Shown here in pieces: positions 1,544-47,752 of a stretch of DNA of 64,000 nucleotides (positions are counted from its first letter, which is position 1; each line of letters opens with the position of its first letter). Location of the stretch: positions 38,995 through 102,994 of the forward strand of contig FMBT01000446.1 in assembly GCA_900095095.1 (NCBI GenBank), in the 5' to 3' direction. Made by a program: the position numbers and the translations under genes. The notes below the pieces were generated by a model that saw only the letters and a list, made by a program, of their open reading frames with translations, was not told where the DNA came from and ran no database searches. Source of the stretch: Fragilariopsis cylindrus CCMP1102. Its lineage: Eukaryota > Bacillariophyta > Bacillariophyceae > Bacillariales > Bacillariaceae.

Positions 1544-1869
1544 AAATAAGCGATAGATCCCAGTCGTGTCTAAACGAGAACACGTCTACGAAAATAGGCG
1601 CGCCCTTTTGTGAAACACGTGATTTTTTTGAGAACGTGCTCTATTTTTTAGGATCTGCCGCCAACAAAAATAGAATTCAAATTTTTGTCAGAATAAACGT
1701 AATGAAATTCGATTCGGATTCTTGCTTTGCACGTAGCTCTTGGTGGTATCTTCTGTTCTTACAATATTAATTCTAATTCTTGTACCACATTTCTTCAATA
1801 CTTTATTGTTTAACACTTTAGTAAGAATTCGGAGTCGGTGCAACGGTCTGTCATAAGAAACAATTCAAA
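1544..1869. promoter_or_regulatory. Shared upstream region of two divergent genes
   Basis: This 326-bp interval separates two divergent start codons and should hold both promoters. I see a GC-rich patch at about 1595-1607 followed by AT-rich sequence, but no motif I can name with confidence. Confidence 0.3.
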
Positions 1870-3434
1870 ATGGTAGCATCGATGGCAGCTCGTCGGGTGG
1901 CAATGACATCGACAGCTACGCGCTTTTGGTCGAAAGCCAAAACTGTTCCTGTTACGTATCCTCTTGCATTTGGAATCGTTCTTTCGGGATTTAAGACTTC
2001 CTTTTCCGATCTGTTGGTACAAAAGGTTGTTGAAAGAAAAGAAAAAGTCGATTGGAAACGGAACGCTGCATTTGCTGCTTTTGGTTTTTTGTATTTAGGA
2101 GGTATTCAATATACGCTATATGTTCCTATCTTTGGTCGTCTTTTCCCCAACGCTGCTAGGTTTGCTGCCAAACCAATTAACCAAAAATTAAAGGATGTTA
2201 AAGGAATGGTACAATTGGGAATACAAGTTTTCTTAGATCAATGCGTACACCATCCTCTAATGTATTTCCCCGCTTTTTACATAACGAAAGAACTGGTTAT
2301 GTGTGGTAGTAAGAATATTGACGGAAAACCTGACATCTCCCACGTATTGACTGAATACCGAGCCAATATGAAGGAAGATTTGCTGGCATTGTGGAAGATT
2401 TGGGTTCCTTGTACGATTTTTAACTTTGCATTTATGCCCATGCATTTGAGAATTCCCTTTGCAGCTGGTGTATCACTGCTTTGGACTGCTGTCTTGTCAG
2501 CCATGCGGGGCGGGGATACATTACACGGAGACGACTTAGCTGGTGGTATGGTAACAGGTGCCTCGTATCAAATCTTCTTGGAGGGATTGGATGCATTCAA
2601 CACTACACCAGTTGAATTGGATCGTGACCTAGATCATATGAGTATTTCAGCTTCTGGGAAAGACCGAGCCGGGATTGTCGCACAGCTTGCCGGTCACGTA
2701 GCCAAACAAGGGGGTAACGTTACTCATTCGAAAATGGTTAGATTGGGAGAAGAATTTATCATACAAATGCACGTAGCCGTCCCTAAAGAAACATCCAATG
2801 CCTTTTTCCGATCTCTTAAGAGTCGTAACCTCAAAAAAGAAATGGAATTGGATATTCAAGCAACAAGACTGAATCGACGAAAAACAAACCACGCACATAC
2901 GGCTGTTATGGGTATGAAAATTCATTGTGTAGGAGACGATCGGTAAGTTGTTTCTTTTTTAATTCTATTTTAAATTGAGAAAGTCTATCATTTGTTTGTT
3001 GTGTTCAACAATACAATACAATGTAATATCAGATCTGCTATGATGATTCTCGTTTTCTTGTTTTGTTTCTCTCTCGGCTTGGGGTGTTTCTTGTAGAAAA
3101 TGGTGATAAAAGCGTTATGTACTCACTCATGCACCCTTATCTTGCGATATTAACAACGATATTGATTTCTAAATTATCGTTATCTCTATGTTATAGACCT
3201 GGGATTTTGGCCGATGTAACCGACCGCATTGCTAGAAAAGGCATGTCACTAGAAGACGTAACTACGTCGATTCGTTTGAGTAGCACCGGACAGAGAGAGT
3301 TTATCATCGATGTGTTAGCTAGTTCACCCAACATGAAAGATAAAGAAAATCTGGATCAATATCTTGCAGATATTACATCAATGGAAAAAGATTTGAAACT
3401 CTCTCATCTTGATATTCGAGTTCATACTGGATAG
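1870..3434 (+). CDS. Mpv17/PMP22-family membrane protein fused to two ACT domains
   Basis: Two exons, 1870-2942 and 3197-3434, joined through a phase-2 donor CG|GTAAGT and acceptor TTATAG, give 436 residues. Residues about 25-235 are an Mpv17/PMP22-type four-helix membrane protein: the signature is W-x-I-W-V-P...NFAFMPMHLRIP...LLWTAVLSAMRG. After it come two ACT ligand-binding domains: one at about 255-330 (ISASGKDRAGIVAQLAGHVA) and one crossing the intron at about 350-430 (GDDRPGILADVTDRIARKG). ACT pairs of this kind, as in GcvR-like proteins, often bind amino acids. Mpv17 proteins sit in mitochondrial, peroxisomal or plastid membranes. The inferred role is a membrane protein gated by a small ligand; the ligand and organelle are unknown. 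The N-terminus is basic and Ser/Thr/Ala-rich, fitting mitochondrial targeting. Confidence 0.82.
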
Positions 3435-4085: not shown

Positions 4086-7000
4086 TCATGATTCATGCAG
4101 CTGTGAAAGAGCTTCTCTCGAAATCGAATAGGCGGCCTTTTCGATTTTGGCTGGGATGCCACCCCCGATTACAGAAAAAATAGCATCGCTTCGTGTCTTC
4201 AGGTTTGCATCTCCAGGCAATAGGTCCATTTGGTCCTCGTCATCTCGAACTAACTTTTTTGACAGCATGCCACGCTCCGACGGTGTGTGCAGGTGAGGAC
4301 ATAGTTTAGCGAAGAGCTTGACTGTGTTGGCAAAAGTGAGGGGACCCAAGCTGTAAGCATGTTCTACCTGTCCACCGATAGCGGGTTGACACAAAGAATT
4401 AAGCGCGGTGATAATAACTCTGACCTGTTTCGTTTCGTAGAGGATAGTGCTGAGAATCTTTTGCAATTCTAGACATTCAACGTCCGAAGACTTGATAAGT
4501 TCAGTGCGGTCGAAAACAATCAAACATTTGTCGGTCTTTAAACTTCTGCAGATAACTTCCAGCATAGCTTCCGTGTCCGTATCTTCGTCGGTCGGTCTAC
4601 ATTTGCCCTTTTCTTCAAGTTTGTCCAGTAGTTGACGAAGGAGAGAGCGACACAGGACGTTTCGGTCGCCTTGTTTTGGTTTGATGAAGTAAATGTGTTG
4701 AATCTCTGAAATGGTGCTGGCGCGCTCATTAATGTAATGGCAAAGTGCACAAACTAGTGACGATCGACCGATACCGGTATCGCCCAACACCGAGACCAAT
4801 CTTTTATTCAATTTGAGCAAAGCCGAAAGAATGTAATACAAGTCCATTTCTCTACCCAAAAAGAATTGCGGAGGAGTCGGAGAAGGATCTTCCTGCATCA
4901 TATTTCGAACACTCAGCTCGGAACTCTTGGTTCCCAAGGTGAAGCCGCCTGTCAAAAAGCTTCCACGACTCCCGCGTCGACGAGAGGATTTTGTAAGGAC
5001 AGAGCCATGACTTCGAGACTGTTGTTTTGGCCATTCTCGAATAGATTTTGCACGGAATACTGGCTTATTGTGGTCACCGCCCTCAGGAAGCAGTACAAAT
5101 TTCTTCATTTCTTCGGTACTCTCTCTCAAGTTAGGGGTGGCTCGTACAGCTTTACAGCCTTGGTCGAAAGATTCCTTTACAGTATGACCCATAAGCAGGG
5201 CTAGATAGAAGGATCGAGTAAAGGCCAGTGCTGAAAAGAAAAAGAGAAAATGGTAAAATAAATTTGATAAAGGAGAGAAACGATGGATTAGAACCCCAAA
5301 AATTATCTGGATGATAAACCAAATTCACGAGAGATTTTAGTTTATTTAGATTAAGATTCACTTACCTGCCGTATCCTTTAGTTCGGAATCTTGTTTACAA
5401 CAAACAACATGAGGTACCCCCGCATCTGCAAATGTTTCACCTGCTAGACCACTATGACAGGCAGATACAAAGACAAATTTAAATGGGACAACACCGTTTT
5501 GCAGAATAAGGTCCTTGATATCCTGGACGCTCAACCAATTCGGACCTCCCATTCCATCTTCAAAAGGTAGAAACGATTGATGGCCGTGTCCAGAATAGTG
5601 GAGAACACTGCAACGCCTAGTCAAGGTTGCCAGTAGACGAGAATGATGCGCATTATCAAAACTCATCTCGATGTCTCGAGAAGCTTCCTTCATACACTGC
5701 CATAACAGTTCCTGCTCCATTTCAAAATCCAACTTCGCAAATGGATGCAATTTGTTCTCTCCGTCAGCAAAGACAAGGGGAGCCGAAAACAGCACAGTGA
5801 TCTTGTTGTCACCCTGATCATTTGTGTCAAGAGATAATGTTTCTTGGTCTCCGGTATATGAGTTTCTAGAGCAGATTGTCTTTGTTTCTTCGTCAATAAG
5901 GTCAAGTTCGCCTGATTGTCTATCCACGGCATCTTGAGTATCAGTGTCTCCCAGAAGTTTCATTTCTTTTTCAACCACATATCGCTTGATAGCATTTTTC
6001 CGAGATTTCTGTAGGAAGTCAGCGAGTTTAGATTCTTGATTAGAAGTCAGAGTGGGGCTGTTATTCTCGAAAAGTAGAAATGATAAACCGCTTTCGGCAT
6101 CTCGATTATTCAGGTTATCAAGAATTAGATCGATGAGAGCGGGGTTGAATTTATTTTCTGAAAGATTCAAATGGCAAAGTGAAGTGTTCTTCAAAAGACA
6201 CGATGCCAACAACTGATAGGAGTCGCTCTCTAGACCATTATTAGAGAGATCCAAATAACGTAAGCACAATGCATTGTGCTTCAGTAGGGCAAAAATTTCT
6301 AGACCAGCCTGGCCTAGGAACAAATTGTTACCAGCCAGGATTAGCGTGTGCAAAGATGATTGCCAGCTCTTCCGTAACATTTTCACTCCCACCTTCTGGT
6401 TGTACCGGTAGTACTCTGTGTAGGCGCGCAAAACTCGAACAACATTAGCACCTCTTCCTATACGGTTTCCTGTGAGATCGAGTTGCTCTATACTGCATCC
6501 AGAATGCTTGTCATGGACAAGTTCGAGTATCATAGCAGCAGCTTCGTCTCCTAAATTATTTCCAGTAAGATCTAGAATTTTCAATGTCGATAATGGCGCA
6601 GGAGCAGGATTTCGTCGTGCATGTCCCATTTTACCAAACATTTGAAAGAACGAGCTCCATGATTCTCTACTTATTTGCAAAGAATTACGAATACTCATGC
6701 ACGCAAAATTTCCCTGTGGTTGGCCAATGGACACTAGTGAAGTTTCGTCGTCAAGATCATGTCCTGACGATAACTTTCCAATCGTATCTAGAATAGCAAC
6801 TAAAGCCCTGAGATCACGATCATTCAGCATGTTGTCGAATGTCAGATGAGAAACCCAGGGTGGAAGAGAACCGGTAAGATTAGCAAGTAAACCACCTCCA
6901 TCGTCTGCATCACTTCCTTTGTCGGATTTGCGCATAGCAATCCATTCAGAATTCCGTACAAAAGAAAGCCCCGTGATCATGGGGTGTTTGTATAAAGTCT

Positions 7001-10000
7001 GAACGAGCGACTCAACGAATTCACCAGCGAAGGTGCTATTGGTGAAACCAAGCGTCCAATGAACATCATCAGAATCAATAACAGATCCTTGCTTGTCGCA
7101 TAGCCGAGCCAAGAGCTCACCCTCTCGTCGGAACGAAAAATACCTCCTTTTTGGCATCATAAAAGCCCGAAAATTGAAGCTCGACTGGGGAAGAAGATCA
7201 TTGACAGGTACAATGTAATTACGAAGTGCCTTTGACGGGAAACAAGAATCTAAAAGCTTTTCAACTCGCTCTGGCATGGTTCCAGATATACTAAATTTCT
7301 GTGACTCATTGCATGCTTCTATTGCATGATGGTGACTAAGAACCCAGTCTTTTTCTTCCCTCGCATCGCTCAGAGGGAAAACATGAGACGCCATCATATT
7401 TTTATCAGCTTCCGATACATGTTGGTCAACACTACCTGGAACTCTTTTCAGTCTATTACTAGATTCATAGACGTTAAGATATTGCCACAGTATTTTCTCT
7501 CTATCGTCACGTGAATCGTAGTCACTAGTGAAACTCGCGAATAAGTCCTTACAAACTGGGTCGTCGTTAGAATCAATACTTCTTTCGTCGGTAGTAGATG
7601 ACTTCTCTGAATTCGCCTGTGATCGTTCGCGAATAAGTCTCATCTCTTCTAAACTATCGGGATCGGTTTCACTGAGAGGTATTTGCCACAATTCCAATAC
7701 TTTTGTACGTATTTCAGTGCGCACCATTGCTTGCAGAAGTAAAGCCCGATGCAAACAAAACAAATCGACAAGAAATTGCGGATTGTTTCCGGCCACTTGT
7801 GCTGAAATTTCATCTTCGATAAATCCCATCGAAAGCAGAACTTGATTCGCAGCGGTTGCAATATCAATCTGTTCTCCACCCATACTTTTGAATAGGAGCA
7901 ATTTCGGTAGTGTTTGGTTTACGATTCTAATCTTGAGGGGCTCGTAAACAGCAAGAGCTCCTATTCCCTGTAGTGCATCAATTGTTAACTCTGTCGAAAG
8001 ATCGGTCTCGATATTGTCATCACACTCGTTTAACCGCTTGAGAATACCGTCCAATGCTTCGAACACATCAATTGCCCAATTTGCTATTCCCGATGATGCA
8101 GTATCTGATAAAAGCAGAGGTGATAAATTTGCCAACAAGCGGCACGATTCCTCAAGAAGATCTATTCGATCAAGTGCTATCATTTTATTTTCTGCAAGAA
8201 ACGACGGAGTGCTCGATAGCGCGGAGACGCAAAGGATCCCCGTAAGTCCTCCACTCATTGCAACGTCAAGACAGCCCTTCACAAGCAGCTCCCTTGGCTT
8301 AAGTTGAGGATCCATTCGACGAATGTTCTGTGATTTCTTCGACTCTCTTTGAGGCTCCAATATATTTGCTAAGGCGCGAAGAGCTCTGTAGGTGTCTTTC
8401 ACTCCTGTAATCAAAGTTTCATCTATGCCCAAGGAATCCATCGTTTGTCTTGCATCTAGTCTGTCATAACCTTCTAATAGTTTTATGACCGATGTATTGT
8501 CCTTGATAGTCTGTCCAAGTGTTCCCGCAGCACCCACGCTACAAAGTTGCAATCGGGTCTGACGGTAAGAATCTGTATCTTCGCTCAGAACTCTGAGAGC
8601 CTCTACAGAAATAGATCGGAGTTTCCCAGTATGTTCCAGGGCAATCTGCACAAACGACCCATGAGCCCATCCTTGTAGAATATCGCTAATATAAGAGGGA
8701 ACAAAAACACCGTTTAGAATGTAATCTTATTAGGATCGACCCATCAATACTGACTTTCATATATGTACTTACTTGACGACATTCGCATGTTTTGTTGTAT
8801 TGTCAGAGTACTTGTAATTCCCGCATTCAGCACTAGCACCAGTCATAGCACCAGCCGCTAATTGTAAAAGAGCAGTACAGGCAAAAAGAACTATATCTTC
8901 CGATTCTGGTGAAGTATGCTCGTATAGTAGGGCCACCAGATAATTCACCCCGTTGGCATGTACCACTGCTGCTCTGGTATGAGGTGCAACACACAAATAA
9001 GACAACATTTCGGCAACTGCAAGACGAACATCTTGACCAACAGACTCGTTTAGAAGTTTCACAATTTCACTGACAGCTCCCTCATTCACAACCTGCGAAT
9101 GAATCCAACCGGCCATGTATTTGTCCTGGATTGCGATCAGATAGCGCAGTGCCGAAGCAGCCGGTCGAACCTTATAAAAAACTTCCGACCGAATCCATTC
9201 TACAAATATAGCAAGGAGCCCCTCACGAACTGCAATAGGCCTCGCTTCATCAACCTCGCACACTTGTTCGACAATATTATATCCCGTGTCAATCCTAAAT
9301 TTTGCTGTTTGTGTCAGTTTAGCTAGATGGGCTATAAGCGTAACAGCTAGCTCTGTTAGCTCCTGGATTTCTATCGACTCTGACCCTTGGTCGAATACAC
9401 CCCCGCCGGTACGTGATCGTAGACGTCCGTAACGAACTGTTTTGCCAGGACGAAGTGATGGGGGTGATGTACTGGATGCATTCTTTAATTTATTCATCTC
9501 AATCAGAGGCTGAATGGAATTTATCCATAAAATATTAACGCCCACTGAAGCCGCCTTGCACATCTCCTCTATTGTTATCACCACACCGTTTGGAGATACC
9601 GAATTTGACGTGGCCAAAAAATGAAGGCATTCTACCAGCTTAAGTCCAATTGATGAGGATGTTTGCGAGGAGGCCACGTATGACGGTAAAATGTAAGCTA
9701 CCGCCAAGCTTGCAACTACTTTGAGTTCACGGGTCATACCCCTTGTCTGGTGAAATAATGATAGAAACGAATGTATCCCCCCGGATGATATTATTTCGTC
9801 ACTTAACGCCTGATCGTCCCTTGCAAACTTCATAAGGGCTAAAGCTGCTTGCATTCGTTTCTCGTTCGGAGCACGTAACATGCAAATCAAACTAAACACA
9901 TCCTTGTTTTCTTCTAGTAGTTCTATAGTTGGACCTTCCACGGCCTTTTCCTTTTTCATCGGTTCCTTTTCCCGCTTTAATGCGTCCTTTCCCGCTTCCA

Positions 10001-11282
10001 TTGCCGCACAAATCTCATCGTTGATACCGAATAGCTCTTCCAAATTATCTTTACCGATGGTATCTTCTTCCAGGACTGCACTGAGTTTTCCCTGTAAAGT
10101 TTCTTGATCTTGTTTACAACACTCCATAAGTTCTCGTATGTAGCTAGCATTAATATCATTGATACCACTTTTTGACGTAACAACCGACATGAGTGCCGAC
10201 ATGAGTGCTCTTGAATGTTCCTTTGCCAATGTAGTAAAATCATCACCATCAGCCACGACCGATATGGGATGAACATCGTTACCACTGCCGCTGTCATTGT
10301 TTTTGTTGTCTCCTTTACTATTATCGTTGTAGTTATCATCGTAATTATAATCTTCGTCATTTTTTGGTGGGGCTTTGCGCGTAGTCGTTGGTTCGTTATC
10401 TGATGTTATTGATGGTGATAAGGGTGAATGTATCGTCGAAGATTGTTGCCGTAATGTCGCTGTTTCTGTAGTTGTGGTAGCGGGAGGCGCGGATGTATGA
10501 TCCGGAGGAATATTCAAACTCAACCTTGTTGGTGTATTGGGTGTATAGCTGTTACTGCTATTATTAATATTATTATTGCTATTGCTGTTGTTATTGTTGT
10601 TATTTATTCCAAGAGATGATGACCAACCCATTCCTCCTGCAGGAGTCTGAACGGAGGATGATGGTACTGACGACGACGACGATAGAGTTAAATGATCCAT
10701 TATATTGGCTGTAGCATCGGCTGGATCATCATCCTCGAGACTACGTTTGTTAAATTTTGTTCCATAAATCGACGAGCTGTATTTGATAGTCGGCATCGCA
10801 GTATCATCGGTAGAAGAAGCTATTGTTGCTGCTGCTGTAGTCGTTGTCGTAGGAAATACACCGACCGTTGACGATGCCGTCAACGAAGGATGGATGGCCG
10901 ACCTCGTCAATTGACTATCAGGAGTCGGTTTGAGATTGTTATTATTTTCGTCGTCGACATTATGGAAATTACTTGAGTGGCGCGAGCTGGGGCTCTGATC
11001 ATGGTGATGATAGCGCTGAGCAAATTCTTTTTGGGGCTTTCCGTGTTCATTAGCGTCGTTGTCCATATTTAAAAGTTGCCAGGATTTAGAGTACGGCGAA
11101 GATACAGAACTTCGAGAGGTGGAGGGTCGGAGAGAGGAAGCGGTTGTCGTTGTCTTTGTTGTCATTATTGACGAAGTGTCATCGTTGCTTTTTGGCTTTC
11201 CCTTGTGGTCGTCATCCTTCTCCGAATAGTTGTCTTTGCTGCTCTTCATTGGTGATATATTATCACCCGACGAAAAATCCAT
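4086..11282 (-). CDS. Giant ARM-LRR-CHAT protease-STAND NTPase protein (NLR-like)
   Basis: Three exons are inferred on the minus strand: 11282-8773, 8685-5366 and 5230-4086. The introns (87 and 135 nt) have GTAAGT donors and AG acceptors, and phases match exactly, giving 2324 residues. The first 350 residues are Ser/Asn/Thr low complexity. Residues about 400-1130 are armadillo/HEAT-like helices that continue across intron 1. Residues about 1540-1700 hold ribonuclease-inhibitor-type LRRs (LKILDLTGNNLGDE, LRYLDLSNNGLES). A CHAT caspase-like protease follows, with the His motif HYSGHG (1866-1871) and the Cys motif SACHSG (Cys about 1913), continuing over intron 2. The C-terminus is a STAND-type NTPase: FLGRE (2067-2071), P-loop GDTGIGRSS (2093-2101) and Walker B LIVFD (2180-2184). 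The P-loop has Arg where Lys is usual. By analogy with NLR and caspase-like switches it may sense a signal and activate proteolysis; this is inference. The ATG at 11282 is the first one in frame. Confidence 0.85.
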
Positions 11283-23493: not shown

Positions 23494-25674
23494 TTATTCA
23501 AAATCATCGTCGCAAAGCATACACATCTGGGCGTGTTCAATTAAGGCGTATTCGAATCCATCCACTAAGGCATTCAACGAGGCAGATACAATGTTTGTAT
23601 CTACGCTGACGGTTGTCCATTTTTCCTTCGTTATTGTATCTTGGAAATCAATCAATACTCGTGTTACTGCCTCTGTGGCCGCATTTGGATTCAAAATTCG
23701 AACCTTATAATCCATCAGTTCAACAGATTTCAAAGACGGATGAGACGGTGTGAGAGCCTTCTTTAACGCCCTTGTCAAGGCGTCAACGGGACCCACTCCG
23801 TCACTAACTTCAAGGACCTCGGCAAATGCCAAGTCCGAATTATCTTCTTCATAGTTAGCAACGGTCCGGACTTTTATGGTAGCTCGTGCTGTCGTTCGAG
23901 CATCGCGGGAGGTCACCAATCGACTTGCGCTGTCTATATTCTGATCGTGAGTTTGTGCCGTATAATCAAGGACTTGAAAAGGAGGACAGTATCCTTGGCT
24001 ACCATATAGGATCAACAAATGTACCGATGCATCTGCTCCCTCGAATTGATATCCCATATTCTCAAGCTCCTTTACTCGATTCAATACAGCCAACGAACGG
24101 TCTGACTTTTGTCCTGCGTCCATACTGTTTCCAAATATGTCTTGCATCTTCCCCAGGATGTTTTGTCTTCCGCTCAATTCAGAGATCAAAACTCTCATTT
24201 CGTTACCGATTGATTTCGGCTCAACATGCTGATACGATAAAGGCGACCGTTCCATCGCTGCGACATGTAGTCCTCCCTTATGAGCGAATGCACTTTTACC
24301 AACGTATGGGGACGCGATATTAGGGCTGCGGTTCAAGACCTCATCTACGAAACGAGACAGTTGTGTCAGCTCGGTCAATTTGTCACTGCAAGTCATCTCT
24401 GTTTCGACGTGAATAGCTAGACTTGGAACAATGGAACACAGATCGGCGTTGCCCGTTCTTTCTCCAATTCCGTTTATTGTCCCTTGGATTAACCCCACGC
24501 CCGCATGACACGATGCGATACTATTGGCAACAGCCATGCCACAATCGTTGTGACAATGGATACCGATGGTACAGAAGGGGTCGAAGTGCTTTACAACAGA
24601 CTTGGAAATATCTGTAACCTCCCATGGCATACTTCCCCCGTTGGTATCACACATAACTAAGCACTTAGCCCCAGCGTCTGCTGCAGTTTCGCAACATTTC
24701 ATTGCGTATTCAGGATCAGCCTTGTGCCCGTCGAAAAAATGTTCAAGATCGACTAGAACAGTTTTCCCCAAACCAGCCAAGTACGCAACAGAATCGTGTA
24801 TCATTTCTAAGTTTTCTTCTCGTGTCGCTCTCAGAATTTCGGTGACCTGCCATGAATGGGCCTTAACAACCATACATACAGTAGGTACGTCGGAATCGAT
24901 GAGGGCTTGGATTTGTGGATCATCTTCGACAGCGACATTTTTACGACGACTTGAACCAAATGCAACAAGCTTTGCGCGGGCGTGTTCTGGTAATTCAAGC
25001 TGAGCTCGTTTGAAGAATTCCAAATCCTTCAATCAGAAAAGATGGAATGAAATAAATACAAACAAATCAGAAAATCCATAATTTTTTTATATTAGTGATG
25101 TGTATTTTATTATATATACAGTACTTCCAATTTACAATTAAACTTATATATCGTACAACAACAATACGATATCAATACAACAACATATAAAACATACCTT
25201 TGGATTTGAACCAGGCCATCCTGCTTCGATATAATCAACATCAAATGCTGCAAGACGGGTCGCGATCTTGAGTTTATCATCACACGAAGCGGATATCGAT
25301 TCTCCTTGAGTACCATCTCGCAGTGTCGTATCGAATACTAAACATTCCTTTGGACCTTTCACAAAACTTGCTAGTTTTGACGATGAAATTTTTGGTGCTG
25401 CAGTGTGTTTTAATAAAGACTTTTCTACCCAGTCGTCGTTGTCGTCGCTGCTGCTGCTGATTATGTTTTGATATTTGTTGTTGTTGGTAGTGGCTATGGT
25501 TGTATAGGAAGAAGATTGATCTTCTATCTGCGATAATAGTTGTGTTCCTATAGCAAAATATTTGTTATCGTTAACAAATGCATCGGTCGATGACGACGAA
25601 AATAACACAAATAATAGTATGTAAATAGGACCACTCATTATAACGTCTTGAAATGACAACAACTTCGGCATCAT
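23494..25674 (-). CDS. cimA: (R)-citramalate synthase, plastid-type precursor
   Basis: Two exons, 25674-25198 and 25026-23494 (intron 171 nt, donor AAG|GTATGT), give 669 residues. The signal peptide [18 protein letters not shown] ends in a diatom-type AF site, so plastid import is likely. The DRE-TIM metallolyase domain shows [13 protein letters not shown] (about 115-126), the junction [13 protein letters not shown] across the intron, and the metal ligands HCHND (316-320). The long C-terminus is a LeuA-type allosteric/dimerisation domain (about 500-660). The TLRDGTQGE...[15 protein letters not shown] signature is closer to the citramalate synthase branch (pyruvate plus acetyl-CoA) than to 2-isopropylmalate synthase; that assignment rests on family knowledge. 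It would feed isoleucine synthesis without threonine. The C-terminal domain suggests feedback inhibition by isoleucine. Confidence 0.88.
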
Positions 25675-34753: not shown

Positions 34754-34988
34754 TGTTGAGATTCTAGTTTAGATAAGAGTTTGCTAGTTGTTAAGGTTGT
34801 TCTAAACGATTTATGAGTTCTATCTTAGGCTGTCCTTGAGACGCTGTGTTGCTTGTGCTAGTGGCGATAGGCATTTGTCGTTTGAATTGATGTTACTGTT
34901 TGTGTTTGACTGGCTTGTGTTACTGTTTGAATCGGTGCGTCGTAACGGTATTTGCGGTCTGTCCGTCGTACGGGTTAAGATTTCAACA
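34754..34988 (-). repeat. 3' LTR of the copia element
   Basis: 235 bp, TGTTGA...TCAACA; apparently identical to 40365-40599. It contains the last 56 codons and the stop of pol. A short purine run (GCAAGGGTG on the minus strand) abuts its inner edge as a possible polypurine tract. Confidence 0.95.
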
Positions 34989-37900
34989 CACCCTTGCAAG
35001 CTAGTTGGGCTCTTACCTTCAATATAAGTGTAGATAGGTCTTAGTTTTCTGTGTGTGGCTGGTGAGTGGTATTTGGTGTAGTAGTCGGCGAGGTTAACTT
35101 TGCCCGGAGCCCAGAATACTCTGTATTCTCCTTGTTCCACCCTGTCCTGTACCCAGTAGAATCTTTTGTCCATTGCTTTACTTTGTCTTTGTTTGATTGT
35201 TTTGTTCATTATACCATCTGCTGTACTGTTATCTGTTCGGAGTGGTGTTGGTGGTTGTGGATGGCCGAGTTCTTCGAGTGTTGTTCGCATTGGTGCTAGT
35301 TCTTGTGCGTTCATGTACAATGCTCCTACCTCTGCTTCTGCTGCTGATGCCATTACTGCTTTGATTATTTTTGCTAATACGTATATTGGTCCATTGAATT
35401 GAGTTCCATCTTTGTTGCCTAGATAGTGATATCCACCGGCTCTACTTCTTGATTTTGGTGCTACACAGTACGCTGCATCGCTGTCACATGATAATATCAT
35501 GTCACTGGCTCTGTAAATGATGGTTGCGTCTGGGTTGCTGGCACAGTAGTTTAGGAATTGTATTAGTGCTGCCTGAGTGTCTTCTGTGGCTGTTGTTGCT
35601 TTGATGCTTAGTTCGTTGAGTGCATGTAGTTGTGTGCTGTCTACCGATCTTCCATCATATAGAAATTTGCCACATACTTTTTGGATGTGGTTCTTTTGTA
35701 ATAGGGTCAGTTCCGGTGTTGTATCTTCTGTTGTATACTGTACTTTCTTTCCATATTCCGGTGCTACATATTTTGTTGGTCCATGGTGATGTTTTGTTGG
35801 AGTTGGGTGTTGGAATTGCTGTAGTGCTCTTTTGACATACCCTTTCATGGAAAGTTTTACTTCTCTTTTCTCGTAGTTCCATTCAAGATCAATTCCTATA
35901 TATTTGGATCCAGTCCAATCTATTTTGAGTGGGTATTTTTCTTTGATTGCTGTGAATAAGTGGTCAATGTCATCTTTGTTGGTGTATTTTACTCCAAAGT
36001 CGTCTACTACCAGTGTGAAGCTGATTGGTCTTGTTTTATGTTTCCATAATCCTGGTGTTCGCTTGGTTGGATAGTATCCATACTTGGCTAGGTGTTCCTG
36101 TAGGTCTTCATTTGCGATTCGGCCACTTTGTGCTAGTCCATACATGGCACCTGTAATCTCTACATAGACATGTCCGTCTGCTTCCACATACTGCATTACG
36201 TTGTATTCGTCTATGATTTCTGTTGGGATAAGGCTTAGGTGAATTCTCATGTATTCAGATGATTTGAGTTTTGAATTTGTGTAGAAGTTCCCTATATCTG
36301 CTGCTGCGTACTGTGCATTCTTGGTTGATATTGTACTGTTGAGGTGTATCTTGATTGTTTCTAATCCTGCTGTTTCTGTGCTTGTTTTGCCATCATACTG
36401 TAGTCGATCTCCTCCTACTGTTAGTCTTGTTCGATTGATATCATCTTTTTGTAGTCTTACATCACAGCAGAATCTTGCGTATGTTACCTTCTTTCCTATT
36501 GGTACTTGCTTTCTTCTGATGAAGTGGAATGTGTCTGATCCTTTGACTCGTTGTGTACCATCTGCTTTCTTTCCTACTCCTTTTAGAAGTTTGCCAAATT
36601 CATTTGCTGCTGATTTTTGCCATGATTCCCGTGTTTGTTTGTCTGAGTGGTTGACTAGTTGTTTGTAGTCTATCATTTTGCCTGTTGCTTCATCATATAC
36701 TGTCATTGCAAAGTGTCCTGGTAGTTTTCCTCCTGCTGCTGATGGATTGTTCCTGTTTTGTCGTACGATGTTGGCCCTTTGTAGTCTTGTTGATAGTCTG
36801 GTCATTCGTCTTGTTAGATCTTTGTCTGTATCAATGCATCGAAACTGGTTGAGTGTTCTACTGCTAACTTGTTCGTTATCTCCACTTTCATACTCAATGA
36901 AATATAATCGTTCATTTTCATTGTAGTGGGTGACTTCTCCTCGTTGGATGGTGTTGTTGTAGCTCTTCATAATCTTGGTTCCTATCTCATCTTCGGTAAT
37001 TGTTGGTAATGCCACCCTTGTAGCTACTCGGTTCGTACCTTGGTTCGGAAAGTATTGTTGTTGGTTTTCCACTGGATCACCTACTCGGTTCGGATCTTGG
37101 TTCACGAAGAATGGTTGTTGGTTTTCCCTCGGATCACCCACCACCCTTGTAGCTGCCCATGCCGGCACCCTTGTAGATTCATTATTCTGTTGTCTAGGAG
37201 TGAAGATTTCCCTTAACTTGTCGATGGCGTCATTAGTTGTTGTTCCTTGATCAAGGAATGGCGTGGGTGGATGTGGTTTTTGGAGTATTGCTACTAAATC
37301 TTCCGTTACACTCGCTAGTCTATCTTCTGATGATGTCTTTGGCATTTGTACATGTTCAGGGAAGAATTCGATTGTATCTGTTGTTCTTTCTCCTCTTGTT
37401 GCTGGTATGTATACTCTATAATTCCGATAGTGGTGTTTTGCTGGTCCAATGAAGTAACCTTTTACTCCATGGTCTGCCCATGTCTTTCTATCTTGTGGTC
37501 GCTCGTGTGCCACAATGAGGCATCCAGGTGGTGCTAGTGGTGTCTTGTTGAAGTCAAAATTTCCCCATAACTCGTTGTAGGCTGATTTTAGTGGGTTGAT
37601 TCTTGACGGCCGTAACATGTTTAGTGTTAGTACTGCCACTTGCAGTAGCCTATCCCATTGGCTCTTTGGGAAAGTTGGATCACACCCATACAGTGTTGAT
37701 ACGAAATGATTTTTGACTGTTTGTATTGCTCTCTCTGCAGGTATGGTCCGATGGTTGCCTCTTGGTGCTATTTGGTATTTTAATCCTCTTGATTCTATCT
37801 CTTCAATGAGTTCCTTCGAAAATTCGTTGTCTATTCGGTGTAGTACTGGGTTGATGCCTGCTTTCTTCAGTGTATCGTGCATCTCAATGAATCCTGCTAA

Positions 37901-38986
37901 TAGGTGTTCTTTTGCTCGTGATTTGATTGCCACTGCTAGAATTGCTCCTGAATCACTATCTTCCATCACCATGATGTATCTGTTTCCTCTTGATGATGTG
38001 TTTGGGAAAGCACCTGTTTGATCACTTGATGTCATTCCTTTTAGGTCTGCAAAGTTTACTGCTGTTATCTGTACAATGTGTTCCCGATTTGTTATTTCTC
38101 TTGGTGGTAGGTAGTCTGGATCATCTTCTTCATCTTCCATTATGTCCTCTGTTGTTACTTTGTCTGTTGGACGTAGGTTCTTTCTGACTTTGTGTAGATG
38201 CCCCATTGTTGTCTGTATTGATTTTGGTAGGTGTTTTCTGATGCCATGTGATGTTAAACCTGGGAATGATGTTAACCAATTTTTGTCAATTGCTTTGATT
38301 AGTGTAGTGACGACTGGAGCTCCTAATGTTGCATGGTGCCATGCTTGTAGTTGTGATGCAGATTTTTGTTGGTAGGCACTGTTGGCTGTGTGCTTTAGTT
38401 GGATCATAAATGGTCTTTTGCTTGTTGTTGTCGTGCCGTTGCTTTCTAGTGGCATTAACCATAAGTTCGTTTCAGCATCTCTTGGTCCCTCAATGATGAT
38501 TTTGTTATCTTTGAGTACTTGTACATTCTTCTTCTTGAATACCACTGTGCAGTTGGCATCACATAGTACTGGTACCGATATTAGTGATCTTTCCATTTCA
38601 TTGAATCCGTGTGCTTTCTGTGCTTCCACTGGCAGTTCTGGAGCTAGTTGTAGTTGCCTGGTCGTTACAGAGTTCATCGTGTTTGTGTTGGCTACTCCTA
38701 CGTTGATTTCTTCATGATGTAGTGGTTCTCCTAGATACTTGTGTTTGTTGGCTAGAAACATGCTAGTTGCTGCTGAGTCCGGATGACCCTGTGGTGTAGA
38801 TTGGTTGATTAATATTGCTTTGAGGTTGTTTGTGAGAGTTGACAAACGCGTTGAACTACTATTGTTTGTTACTGCTGCTGCATATGATATATGCCTGTTG
38901 TTGATACGCGAAGATGATGTGTAATTGTTCAAATCAGTATTAATTATTTTATTTTGACTTATCTTACTATTCACCTCCCCACCTTG
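34820..38986 (-). CDS. Copia pol: protease, integrase, reverse transcriptase, RNase H
   Basis: Open from just after the gag TGA to 34820: 1388 residues in the same frame as gag, beginning QGGEVNSK. There is no ATG at the start, so expression should depend on gag. A DSAA motif (HPDSAATSMF) sits where the aspartic protease has DSGA. The copia linker LISVPVLCDANCTVVFKKK follows. The integrase core has D (SSDQTGAF), D (HRIDNEF) and E (PAERAIQT). The reverse transcriptase has YAAADIGNFYTNSKL and catalytic VVDDFGVKY. RNase H has SCDSDAAYCV, AEAEVGAL and LRTDNSTAD. The C-terminal residues are Asn/Ser-rich and are encoded within the LTR. Confidence 0.93.
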   Translation of the reverse strand, partial: QGGEVNSKISQNKIINTDLNNYTSSSRINNRHISYAAAVTNNSSSTRLSTLTNNLKAILINQSTPQGHPDSAATSMFLANKHKYLGEPLHHEEINVGVANTNTMNSVTTRQLQLAPELPVEAQKAHGFNEMERSLISVPVLCDANCTVVFKKKNVQVLKDNKIIIEGPRDAETNLWLMPLESNGTTTTSKRPFMIQLKHTANSAYQQKSASQLQAWHHATLGAPVVTTLIKAIDKNWLTSFPGLTSHGIRKHLPKSIQTTMGHLHKVRKNLRPTDKVTTEDIMEDEEDDPDYLPPREITNREHIVQITAVNFADLKGMTSSDQTGAFPNTSSRGNRYIMVMEDSDSGAILAVAIKSRAKEHLLAGFIEMHDTLKKAGINPVLHRIDNEFSKELIEEIESRGLKYQIAPRGNHRTIPAERAIQTVKNHFVSTLYGCDPTFPKSQWDRLLQVAVLTLNMLRPSRINPLKSAYNELWGNFDFNKTPLAPPGCLIVAHERPQDRKTWADHGVKGYFIGPAKHHYRNYRVYIPATRGERTTDTIEFFPEHVQMPKTSSEDRLASVTEDLVAILQKPHPPTPFLDQGTTTNDAIDKLREIFTPRQQNNESTRVPAWAATRVVGDPRENQQPFFVNQDPNRVGDPVENQQQYFPNQGTNRVATRVALPTITEDEIGTKIMKSYNNTIQRGEVTHYNENERLYFIEYESGDNEQVSSRTLNQFRCIDTDKDLTRRMTRLSTRLQRANIVRQNRNNPSAAGGKLPGHFAMTVYDEATGKMIDYKQLVNHSDKQTRESWQKSAANEFGKLLKGVGKKADGTQRVKGSDTFHFIRRKQVPIGKKVTYARFCCDVRLQKDDINRTRLTVGGDRLQYDGKTSTETAGLETIKIHLNSTISTKNAQYAAADIGNFYTNSKLKSSEYMRIHLSLIPTEIIDEYNVMQYVEADGHVYVEITGAMYGLAQSGRIANEDLQEHLAKYGYYPTKRTPGLWKHKTRPISFTLVVDDFGVKYTNKDDIDHLFTAIKEKYPLKIDWTGSKYIGIDLEWNYEKREVKLSMKGYVKRALQQFQHPTPTKHHHGPTKYVAPEYGKKVQYTTEDTTPELTLLQKNHIQKVCGKFLYDGRSVDSTQLHALNELSIKATTATEDTQAALIQFLNYCASNPDATIIYRASDMILSCDSDAAYCVAPKSRSRAGGYHYLGNKDGTQFNGPIYVLAKIIKAVMASAAEAEVGALYMNAQELAPMRTTLEELGHPQPPTPLRTDNSTADGIMNKTIKQRQSKAMDKRFYWVQDRVEQGEYRVFWAPGKVNLADYYTKYHSPATHRKLRPIYTYIEGKSPTSLQGCVEILTRTTDRPQIPLRRTDSNSNTSQSNTNSNINSNDKCLSPLAQATQRLKDSLR

Positions 38987-43993: not shown

Positions 43994-46594
43994 GACGAAT
44001 AATAATGGATGTAAAATGGATGAATGGAATAGTTGTAATTGCACGACGATAGGAATGATTTTAAAGTGTAAATGATTTCCTTTCTTTGTTCATTCTTTTT
44101 ATGACGGAATTGTACAGGTGCGTAAGCTGGAAAGCGTTTGAGCAAAAGAGCGATACATTTCTTTGTAGAAAGAACAATTCGGAGTTTTCGGAAGTTAAGA
44201 AATTAGTAAATACATCACGTTTTTGTGTGAAGGAATAGAATAACATCACGTACAAAGTTAATTATTAATTATCCTTTTAAGAATTATGTGCTAGTGTAAA
44301 CATTTTTTTTCGACAGTTCTCGTTCAATCTAAACGGCGCTTGTATTGAAGTTTATATAATTGGGAGTCGTGTGTGTTAAGTATAATTATAGAGATCTATT
44401 GTATTAAAAATATTCTTTATTATCACTTTAAATAATAAATAATATTTTTGATAGCGTTCTGTTGCCTTTCGCTGATAGTTGTATACCAGTCGTTAAGTAC
44501 GAGTGGACAATGAATTCTATCCGGCAAGACTCAAGCAGGAATCGTAATTACCCTCACGCAAGTTTGAAAGTGTGAAGCATTTTCATCGAACGTCACGTTT
44601 AACCTGACTTATCACGTGTGTGTATTAAGTATTGTTCACTTGGAAGGAGGGAGGTTGCAGGCTGGGTGACCGAAACAAGTATACTAGAAGAAATGATATT
44701 CTGTTATTCCAAAAGGGACTACTCGCTCGTTGCAACAATTTCATTAATTACGTTCTACAAGTAGTATTAAACGATGTTCTCTATTTTAGATGATTCGGTT
44801 CCCTTTTTATTTTATATGACTAACTATCATCTAAAAAAAGACCAATTTTCTCCAATTCTTGTACTCGAAAGTCTATATCATGTTTATATCCATTTTCTTT
44901 TTGTCGATAGCAGTTTCGTTGTGTTTCTACCCAATAAAAAGTGACTGCTACGTCGAATTGCTATTATACGTCCTAGGAACATTGCAATTCCCGTACTTAT
45001 TACTATATACCTTTAATTTTAATTCATTCAATAACAGTATCAACCAGGTAGAATTTTTTTCTGGTTTTTTGAAGTCTCGATTTATATCCTTTTATACTTT
45101 CTGTGGTACCCAATTCTTGAAGTAAACGTAGGCCTTTTTCTTTATATGTCGACGTTGATCTCTCAACCAATTAGCGAGGCTTTTTTCTTCCGAAGTCATC
45201 GTTTTGTGAAATCATAAGGCTAGCATTCCCATTGCGCTTGTCATACTACTGTTTCAATTCTTTAAGTTTTTTCATCCCACCAAGTTATATGACGCTATGG
45301 CTTTTGTTCCATCAACTAAATAGTTGATAATATGCAATCTTTTCTGTTGTTCCTTTGATAATGAAGTTTTTAACCTTTACGTCGTTGATTCCACAGCCAT
45401 AAATTTATTTTGTCTGTTCAAAATTTAGATTTAAATTTATTATTGTCCTCTTTCAATGTGTTGATGGAGTCTTCATATTAGTCTGCTACATTTCCGCCGT
45501 TTGCTGATTCGACCGTAGATGAAGAAGACGAAACTATTTTAGCCAAGGCCGTGTGGACAGAATCATATCTTCGACGGTGATGCTATAATGTACCGTATCA
45601 ATTCCGTATCTTCCTTTCTCCGTCTTTTCTTCGGTATCACCGCCGTTGGAACAACCAATATCATTGCACGTATTTGATTTGTCCGTCCTCTTGTATATGA
45701 CGATGACATCCTCATTTCCGGGGACAGCTCTAGTCGTTGTTGTACAAGTAGGTAGTGCCGGTAATGGGAATATCGTTTCTTTGACGACATTCATCTTGCC
45801 TGATTATTAATCACTGTATACGACACAGCGAATAGTAACAATAATAAAATGAAAGACATTTGTTCTGATTGTTCTACAGAACGCATTATTTGTCCCATTT
45901 TTGATGACGCCTATAGTTCTAAGCGATATTCTTACAATCTACTTTTCTGTTAGACTCCAAAAATAATTCAACCAGTCTCTAGTACTGTTAATAGTAAAAC
46001 GCTGTTACCTACATGCTGCCGCAGTTGCTGATAAGTTTCTTGTTTCATTATCATGTGAGGGGTATGGAAGAATTATTTGTTTGTTTGTTTGTTTTTTTGG
46101 TTGTGTGTGTGTAGTAGTTGTCGTAGTGGTAGTTGTCGTAGTTGTATAAAGAAGAAGGAAGATCTGAAGACGAAGAAGATCTTGGTTTGATGACACTGCA
46201 TAAAAAAGAAGAACAGAACAGAACAGAACATACTATCGTGTACAATTGTAGCTTATATTTTTTTGACTGATGACACGGTGTCTCAGCAATCACGGTAATA
46301 ATTAATCTGCTTCAAGCCTAGCTATTAACGTTAGTGCGCACGTGTAAAGATCAAAGAATAGCTCGTGAATCAATCACAAATCAGTTTACTTGTTCATTGT
46401 ACGGTACAGTAAATACTCGTACTATCAATGAGAACGAATCTCAGCTAACATACACAGCAGTACAGTAACGTAGCCCATTCCTCGCATTGAAGCAAAAGAA
46501 CTTCATACGGTAAAACAGAGTTTCTATCTTCCTTATACCATCGTACCGCATAGTCGGTCCTTTTCTTGTGACTATACTTTCATCATTCATCACC
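43994..46594. other. Long intergenic region
   Basis: About 2.6 kb between the divergent HMG and sigma genes. It holds one weak ORF (45534-45794), a GTTT/T-rich stretch near 46076-46100, an AGAACAGAACAGAAC repeat near 46210 and otherwise AT-rich DNA. No RNA gene recognised. Confidence 0.5.
45534..45794 (-). CDS. Small hypothetical ORF, weak
   Basis: 86 codons from an ATG at 45794. Composition is fairly protein-like (ETIFPLPALPTCTTTTRAV, then acidic and Lys-rich), with a TAG stop, but there is no known domain. It may be a small gene, part of a spliced gene or chance. Confidence 0.25.
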   Translation of the reverse strand: MNVVKETIFPLPALPTCTTTTRAVPGNEDVIVIYKRTDKSNTCNDIGCSNGGDTEEKTEKGRYGIDTVHYSITVEDMILSTRPWLK

Positions 46595-47752
46595 ATGTAT
46601 ACCACGTCGGCGAAAATTTGCTATACCTCCGCACTGCTTTCTATAATAGTCCTACTAGCAATACTGGATTCGACTAGGATATTCACAGTTGCTTTCATTC
46701 CAGCCACGCGATCGCAGCATAATTCCCCCGAGTTCACTTCTTCCGTAATAAGAACAACAACGTCTTCCTATGCTAGTGAAGCAAGCATCGTAGACATCCT
46801 CGAGGATTATGAGGGACATATCAATCCGGAATTAGCTCAACGAATATGGAAATGGGAAAAACAACAAAGATTGAACCTTGATCAGCCGGACTTTCAAAAC
46901 TATTCTACGAGAGCCGGATTGAGATGGGTTAAAGAGATGGTTGAAAAAACAATGAAATCTTCGACAGTCACGAGTACAACAACGGCAACGCCCAATAATT
47001 TACGACGGAGTCTATACGATGATTTGATACAGGAGGGTGTCATCGGGTTAATGACTGCACTCAAAACATTCGAACAAAAATCTCGTCCCAATGAATCTTT
47101 CGAAACTTTCGCCAAGGCTCAAATTGAGTTTGGGTTGGAAGCATTTACGATAGAAAGAGAAAAGGGCATGGGAAGGTCCACAGGTAAAGGGAAAAGACAT
47201 CCGCTGAGCATGGAAAGTACGATAGAAATTGCTGATCCACTCCAAACAACGACTACCTTTCACAATCAGGACGAATGGGAAATAAGAGAAGGTCTACTAC
47301 TGGACAACGGTGAGTCAGTCGACGACGAGAGTCTCCAATATGAGGGAGAAGACCAGATGTGGATTGCCTCACAATCGGTAGCGTCTCCTCTTCGTGATTC
47401 GATACCCCAAATTGATGATGACGAGGACAGTATCATGGATGGTATTTTTGGAGACAAGAATTCAAATACGTCCCCCGATGATATTGCCCTTACCGATATG
47501 ATATTTTACAATGTCGATGACTTCCTAGGCAATACTTTAGATGAGATCGAATCACAAATTATTCAAATGCGGTATGGGTTGGATGATGGTGTTGCCAAAA
47601 CGCAGAAAGAAATTTCTTACGATTTAAATTTGACCATTAGAGAAGTACGAAAATTACAAAAACTAGCACTGAATAAATTGAGAGCCAAATTCACTGAACG
47701 GTATGTTAGCGACGATACAGGTCACGAAGACTTTTGGGAAGATACTGTATAG
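46595..47752 (+). CDS. Sigma-70-type RNA polymerase sigma factor, plastid-type precursor
   Basis: ATG at 46595 gives 385 residues; the open frame extends upstream only from a GTG. A signal peptide (SALLSIIVLLAILDSTRIF) ends at VAF|IPATRS, a diatom plastid-type site. Sigma region 2 lies at about 135-190 (SLYDDLIQEGVIGLMTALKT, SFETFAKAQIEFGLEAFTIE), aligning with 'DLIQEGNIGLMRAV..F....FSTYA...I' of bacterial factors. Region 4 lies at about 315-375 (DEIESQIIQMRYGL...TQKEISYDLNLTIREVRKLQ), the -35-binding helix-turn-helix. An acidic linker lies between them. It would direct the plastid-encoded polymerase to plastid promoters. Region 1.1 is absent, as usual for plastid factors. Confidence 0.9.
   Translation: MYTTSAKICYTSALLSIIVLLAILDSTRIFTVAFIPATRSQHNSPEFTSSVIRTTTSSYASEASIVDILEDYEGHINPELAQRIWKWEKQQRLNLDQPDFQNYSTRAGLRWVKEMVEKTMKSSTVTSTTTATPNNLRRSLYDDLIQEGVIGLMTALKTFEQKSRPNESFETFAKAQIEFGLEAFTIEREKGMGRSTGKGKRHPLSMESTIEIADPLQTTTTFHNQDEWEIREGLLLDNGESVDDESLQYEGEDQMWIASQSVASPLRDSIPQIDDDEDSIMDGIFGDKNSNTSPDDIALTDMIFYNVDDFLGNTLDEIESQIIQMRYGLDDGVAKTQKEISYDLNLTIREVRKLQKLALNKLRAKFTERYVSDDTGHEDFWEDTV

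Follow-up and report, generated by a model that had tools for sequence, protein, structure and literature searches.

A Conserved Diatom Protein Joining Armadillo and Leucine-Rich Repeats, a CHAT Domain and a NACHT/STAND-Profile Module: A Candidate Regulated Protease

The window, a 64,000-nucleotide stretch of the genome of the diatom Fragilariopsis cylindrus CCMP1102, carries on its minus strand (11282..4086) a gene for a 2324-residue protein in which armadillo (ARM) repeats, leucine-rich repeats (LRRs), a CHAT domain and an NTPase of NACHT/nSTAND profile share a single chain. We give a probability of about 0.5 to its being a conserved raphid-diatom CHAT cysteine protease that is controlled by the ARM and LRR repeats of the same chain and by its C-terminal NACHT/STAND-profile module. 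In molecular terms, the best reading of the sequence would be a CHAT protease gated by its repeats and built on a STAND platform of a non-classical kind, possibly working with a pseudoprotease; a function as a regulated protease is inferred from sequence.

Conservation of the Family and of Its Catalytic Dyad

The window protein has 145 homologues at E ≤ 1e-3, so that its architecture is not a product of chance; the best 120 of these were taken in (120 of 217 matches in a further search) and belong, with the window protein, to family A. Thirty-one of the listed relatives exceed 1800 residues; their alignments span 84-100% of the query, with identities of 39-89%. Named sources include Psemu1 (81%), which we read as Pseudo-nitzschia multiseries, Nitzschia inconspicua (66%), Nitzschia sp. 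Nitz4 (58%), Seminavis robusta (46%), Epithemia clementina (41%), Cylindrotheca fusiformis and Entomoneis paludosa; we take the diatoms named among the listed relatives to be raphid pennates and, judged by these sequences, the gene is conserved in raphid diatoms. The same likenesses make the organism of the window a probable near relative of Pseudo-nitzschia.

Both catalytic motifs announced in an earlier note on this DNA, HYSGHG and SACHSG, are present. Residues were counted over 121 rows (the window protein and the 120 listed relatives, leaving out the later additions P0180-P0197), and His1870 and Cys1913 are invariant in 121 of 121. After the CHAT/separase dyad described in PMC9729208 (this and the other papers are cited from excerpts of their text), His1870 is interpreted as the catalytic histidine.

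Across the 31 full-length relatives, mean identity to the window protein is 0.77 in CHAT, 0.56 in both the NTPase and the LRRs, 0.52 in the ARM region, 0.34 in the middle region and 0.27 in the linker. The repeats are thus constrained about as strongly as the NTPase, which argues against a fast-evolving, arms-race pathogen sensor. The conservation among the listed relatives, together with a single copy in the 67.9 Mb genome (searches with two exons), speaks for a housekeeping or developmental protease acting in the cell cycle, resting stage, sex or cell-size control, whose repeats would dock a substrate or partner, after the model of separase or of the cyanobacterial protein HetF; we regard this role as possible. 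A STAND module is, to our knowledge, unusual among such proteases, and this weighs on the other side. Bacterial CHAT is described as closest to eukaryotic separase (PMC9729208), a further point in favor of this role.

A Nucleotide Pocket without the Canonical Lysine

In the Walker A motif the expected lysine is replaced by arginine at position 2099, and across the 121 rows this position holds R in 115, K in 3 (P0039, P0055 and P0115), S in 1, C in 1 and a gap in 1, while the glycines G2096 and G2098 are each kept in 120. In Walker B, D2184 is kept in 118 rows and position 2187 is acidic in 119 (E in 106, D in 13). The glycine and proline of the GxP motif are found in 120 of 121 rows, and 0-51 residues (median 23) follow the proline. 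On these counts of Walker A, Walker B, GxP and C-terminal length, the nucleotide pocket is judged to be maintained without the canonical lysine, with no room for a winged-helix lid. Further downstream exons encoding a winged helix were considered and are unsupported, since all 120 relatives likewise end within 51 residues of GxP.

With regard to classification, the Walker B acid and GxP of STAND proteins are present, whereas the Walker A lysine (Arg in the window protein) and the winged helix behind the helical domain are absent; the NLR succession of effector, NOD and C-terminal repeats is replaced by the order ARM-LRR-CHAT-NOD. With two tested STAND features and one NLR feature thus lacking, the protein is, as far as sequence can classify it, a CHAT protease and divergent NACHT/nSTAND-profile protein and not a canonical STAND switch or NLR. 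The NTPase had earlier been called NLR-type, which stands for its NACHT and nSTAND1 profiles, Walker B and GxP and falls for the Walker A lysine, the winged helix and the domain order; the Walker A arginine and the missing space for the lid had gone unremarked.

In plant NLRs, engineered lysine-to-arginine changes abolished cell death in Pikp-1 K296R and Pikp-2 K217R (PMC7491719) and in NRC2 K188R (PMC9975942). A protein with an altered P-loop need not be inactive, since the P-loop is dispensable in sensor members of some NLR pairs (PMC7491719) and, according to a review, mouse NLRP1b mutated in Walker A was constitutively active (PMC7583971).

Gene Model and Domain Organization

Every GT/AG pair near both gaps was tried in the splice modelling, and 20 combinations yield more than 2200 residues. 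The longest, of 2324 residues in three exons separated by introns of 87 and 135 bases, begins at the ATG at 11282 with a first exon of 2510 bases and has a GTAAGT donor at each intron, within strong sites (CAA/GTAAGT...TTATATTAG/C and CAG/GTAAGT...TTTTCTTTTCAG/C). The 19 other combinations (2266-2314 residues) were ruled out by poorer sites or by lost aligned residues. Coordinates, strand, both introns and protein length had all been given correctly in the earlier note.

Both junctions are supported by relatives. P0001 (2304 residues, 89% identity) aligns through the two of them without insertion; its contig, of 7916 bases, would have a length compatible with a transcript. At junction 2, an uninterrupted sequence pattern is matched by 129 of 138 family members, some of which may derive from transcripts or spliced gene models where an intron would be invisible; 18 extra members (P0180-P0197) entered this count, 15 of them also alignment A1. 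One of the nine members without the pattern, P0019 (95% identical), runs into intron 2 exactly like the window frame, and the intron is therefore probably lineage-specific. Among 87 shorter relatives the median start falls at residue 840, adjoining residue 838, the first of exon 2; the start lies within residues 780-880 in only 37 of the 87.

Table 1. Features of the gene in window coordinates; residues are those of the spliced 2324-residue protein.
Feature	Position	Strand	Basis and remarks
Exon 1	8773..11282	-	Splice modelling; low-complexity N-terminus and first ARM part
Low-complexity N-terminus	residues 1-350	-	Exon 1
ARM region	residue ~441 (base 9962) to base ~7716	-	Start boundary drawn from conservation
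Intron 1	8686..8772	-	87 bases, GTAAGT...TTAG; P0001 alignment spans junction
Exon 2	5366..8685	-	Splice modelling, Pfam, structure model; second ARM part, LRRs, N-terminal CHAT part
LRRs	about 7235-6036	-	Exon 2
CHAT, N-terminal part	5810-5366	-	Exon 2; both catalytic motifs
HYSGHG motif	5583..5600	-	His1870
SACHSG motif	5448..5465	-	Cys1913
Intron 2	5231..5365	-	135 bases, GTAAGT...TTTTCAG
Exon 3	4086..5230	-	Splice modelling, Pfam, structure model of ortholog P0190; C-terminal CHAT part, linker, NTPase
CHAT, C-terminal part	5230 to about 5076	-	Exon 3
NACHT/nSTAND NTPase	4940-4089	-	Exon 3, after linker
Walker A, GDTGIGRSSL	4755..4784	-	Arg2099
Walker B, LIVFDRTE	4500..4523	-	D2184, E2187
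GxP, GIP	4152..4160	-	Residues 2301-2303, helical domain; 21 residues before protein end
Stop codon	4088-4086	-

A Pfam search of the spliced protein with curated cut-offs applied matched nSTAND1 (31.2 bits, cut-off 27.1), NACHT (30.6, cut-off 26.7), CHAT (PF12770; 29.0, cut-off 24), one Arm repeat (residues 767-806) and one LRR_6 repeat. Combined with the splice model, this gives the order low-complexity N-terminus, ARM repeats, LRRs, CHAT and NACHT/nSTAND NTPase; the claim that ARM, LRR, CHAT and NTPase lie on one polypeptide is borne out, profile searches for CHAT, NACHT and ARM among them having each matched over cut-off. The GAT-domain profile also matched, at 361-429 (E 0.0016), but under its cut-off, and this match was disregarded.

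An AlphaFold2 model of the window's exon 2 (mean predicted local distance difference test, pLDDT, 78.0) shows helical repeats at 1-360 and LRR at 505-870, and the LRR part resembles NLRP3 and RNase inhibitor. The caspase/separase-like fold of CHAT is seen in the predicted structure of the ortholog P0190, whose model covers residues 805-1069 and finishes inside the helical domain of the NTPase. In sequence searches of the PDB, no CHAT-NTPase match was better than E 0.15, and a profile search gave 33 matches, the best stretches of which fall at profile positions 594-920, taken as the LRR part.

A SPRY match is found in Seminavis P0048 (189-315; 22.1 bits, under the cut-off of 26.3), and SPRY is also in the precomputed domain list of P0017, a family A member of Nitz4; certain species may, on these sequences, carry an additional binding domain near the N-terminus.

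A Sister Family with a Macro Domain

Three further LRR-CHAT-STAND loci (L007, L009 and L010) lie on another contig of the same genome, C63, at about 147-178 kb. The model of one of them is a protein of 1716 residues in which a macro domain (22.7 bits, cut-off 22) follows the NTPase; the diverged third locus stays below the cut-offs (CHAT 20.1 against 24, macro 14.4 against 22). Two of the genes form an inverted tail-to-tail pair with 83% protein identity over the second part, and the stretch between them, at about 170.7-171.7 kb (L010:739-1670), has near-identical open frames of 174 codons that lie on the two strands and overlap head to head; the diverged gene is the nearest of the three to P. 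multistriata P0178.

Family B was assembled from 59 sequences, namely the modelled C63 gene and 58 homologues (P0121-P0178), leaving out P0179 (a shark NLR, 19% coverage) and the two other C63 genes. It has the LRR-CHAT-STAND core in common with the window family and differs from it by the added macro domain and by ARM, which is not in its Pfam lists. The macro model is in the precomputed lists of 10 of the 58 homologues, and most others align through the same region. Nearly all precomputed domain lists of family B contain PF27087, and the shark NLR match has it as well.

The catalytic cysteine is kept in 3 of 59 sequences (mostly replaced by Phe, 34, or Tyr, 12) and the catalytic histidine in 20 of 59; both are retained only in P0162, P0176 and P0178 and the dyad is lost in 56 of 59, so that most members, as far as the sequence tells, seem to have a dead protease part. 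Since family B shows CHAT retained without its dyad, CHAT might also be no working protease in the window protein, which would then be a scaffold; unlike this loss, the His and Cys of family A are invariant, and we consider the scaffold very unlikely. All 59 family B sequences have the Walker A lysine. The Ser/Thr behind it is found in no more than 37 of them, and at the second acid position of Walker B most have another residue (Lys in 32, Gln in 9), so that the switch of family B is not clearly canonical.

A single branch with 100% support in the Shimodaira-Hasegawa-like approximate likelihood ratio test splits families A and B in a 55-row unrooted tree, made by a quick method with the trait columns included; as its root is unplaced, gain and loss are indistinguishable. 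Within incomplete lists, both families occur in five genomes, those of Nitzschia inconspicua, Nitz4, the SGILL Bacillariaceae metagenome-assembled genome (MAG), Cylindrotheca fusiformis and the window's own. Among the listed matches, only family A is represented for Psemu1, Seminavis, Epithemia and Entomoneis, and only family B for the SGBAC MAG and P. multistriata.

A family B pseudoprotease is a plausible regulator or partner of family A. In a more specific and rather improbable version, an ancestral one-chain protease with nucleotide switch would have been duplicated in diatoms; A would have kept the protease and given up the lysine P-loop, B would have kept the lysine, lost the dyad and gained the macro (ADP-ribose-type) domain, and the two would act in trans as a split switch in which B gates A. 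The case is built solely on the mirrored residues of the two families, and the not fully canonical Walker motifs of B lower its likelihood. The gating of caspase-8 by cFLIP and the paired NLRs offer models for such a relationship.

Comparison with Known CHAT and STAND Systems

The nearest published relatives in kind that we found, within the excerpts consulted, are fungal NLRs with N-terminal CHAT and gasdermin partners (PMC12881547, PMC10197012), which likewise hold CHAT, NOD and superstructure repeats on one chain. In the fungal order the protease is N-terminal, the NOD central and the repeats (WD40, TPR, ANK) C-terminal; in the diatom protein, by comparison, ARM and LRRs are N-terminal and the NOD, with its arginine P-loop and without a lid, lies at the extreme C-terminus. 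While the fungal systems have gasdermin partners, a six-frame search of the diatom genome without intron handling gave no gasdermin over cut-off, with one match at E 0.036 that contains a stop. The bacterial SAVED-CHAT (8tl0) and Craspase TPR-CHAT proteins have in common with it the CHAT fold and the His-Cys dyad, and ligand- or partner-gated activation is known there; their sensor is SAVED or a CRISPR complex, and they are not known to carry STAND, LRR or ARM. With animal and plant NLRs (NLRP3, NOD2, Sr35, NRC) it has in common RNase-inhibitor-type LRRs and a NACHT/NB-ARC-type NTPase, and it differs from them by reversed order, the absence of a winged helix, the replaced Walker A lysine and the protease in the same chain. 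No report of an ARM-LRR-CHAT-STAND architecture in diatoms was found among the papers listed in searches of the open PMC literature.

A true NLR-type immune receptor, a contracted inflammasome whose repeats would sense viral, bacterial or parasitic intruders, whose STAND module would oligomerise and whose CHAT would trigger cell death, seems unlikely. Its parts list agrees with that of the fungal CHAT-NLRs and bacterial CHAT defence proteins, and the likeness of its LRRs to NLRP3 and RNase inhibitor points the same way; against it stand the single copy, repeats about as conserved as the NTPase, an arginine P-loop of the kind that silenced Pikp-1, Pikp-2 and NRC2, the gasdermin search and a PADLOC search in which neither P0190 nor P0001 had a match at E ≤ 0.01. 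The "inflammasome-like" label of the earlier note thus holds as a parts list and is unproven as a function, the conserved repeats arguing against a fast-evolving pathogen sensor.

In the library of anti-phage proteins, P0190 and P0001 gave none, and three weak matches were obtained for P0162 (843-964). Two strict patterns gave three matches to possible bacterial relatives among genome contigs, none of them confirmed. A CHAT profile search of the genome matched two C63 loci and missed the window's own intron-split CHAT, so that more CHAT genes may be overlooked. Other NACHT-profile matches in the genome lie at C164:279875, C62:107437 and C465:32567, the last two of which score identically and may represent a single duplicated locus.

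Proposed Mechanism

In the mechanism that we favor, the ARM-LRR scaffold would bind an internal, slowly evolving ligand or partner, and this binding would free or assemble the molecule via the STAND module. With its nucleotide retained, the latter would serve as a platform for structure or oligomerisation, without the cycling of an ATPase that depends on the lysine and is gated by a lid. The adjoining CHAT would then attain its active geometry and cut a host protein. This last step assumes that the dyad-closing principle of PMC9729208 holds here; in the CHAT protein described there, activation brings the two dyad residues from a distance of about 7 angstroms to one of about 3. The immune and housekeeping alternatives concern the biological role and are compatible with this mechanism, so that the likelihoods given to the several readings overlap and do not sum to one.

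Several observations weigh against a repeat-gated protease on a non-cycling platform. Structure prediction bears out the CHAT fold in P0190. In the window's exon-2 model the incomplete CHAT sheet reaches a pLDDT of about 50-72, and the 50 PDB chains listed as matching this model are all of LRR or NLR type, with CHAT in none of their names; the predicted template modelling score of the P0190 model, 0.54, makes its domain placement tentative. For P0048 of Seminavis, Arm and LRR_6 are missing from the matches listed at E ≤ 0.001, and the ARM_ARMC5 score lies far under its cut-off. With respect to the switch, a lysine-bearing Walker A is kept in 3 of 121 family A rows, arginine may still permit nucleotide binding and slow hydrolysis, and a winged helix could come in trans. 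As for the repeats, conservation was measured at the amino-acid level only, and they may still guard a conserved host protein from pathogens.

Other Genes in the Window

Elsewhere in the window, one open frame at 1825-2943 (plus strand) joins an Mpv17/PMP22 domain to an ACT domain, and an HMGL and LeuA-dimerisation-domain frame at 23497-25032 (minus) is probably a 2-isopropylmalate synthase. The frame at 34823-38986 (minus) is that of a Copia-like retrotransposon, with RVT_2 and retroviral SH3-like domains and a further match of Tudor type, and the Sigma-70 region 4 protein at 46514-47749 (plus) is probably a nuclear-encoded plastid sigma factor.

Significance

Phage defence in bacteria, incompatibility in fungi and cell death in animals are connected by CHAT proteases and STAND switches; the algal lineage described here has both on one conserved chain, in inverted order and with a near-uniform change of the P-loop. 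The death machinery of diatoms is usually framed in terms of metacaspases; this protein adds a defined candidate through which they might regulate proteolysis or cell death. A STAND module with a Walker A arginine and without a lid offers a natural test of whether such modules can work in this form, and the pseudoprotease sister family makes the partner hypothesis testable.
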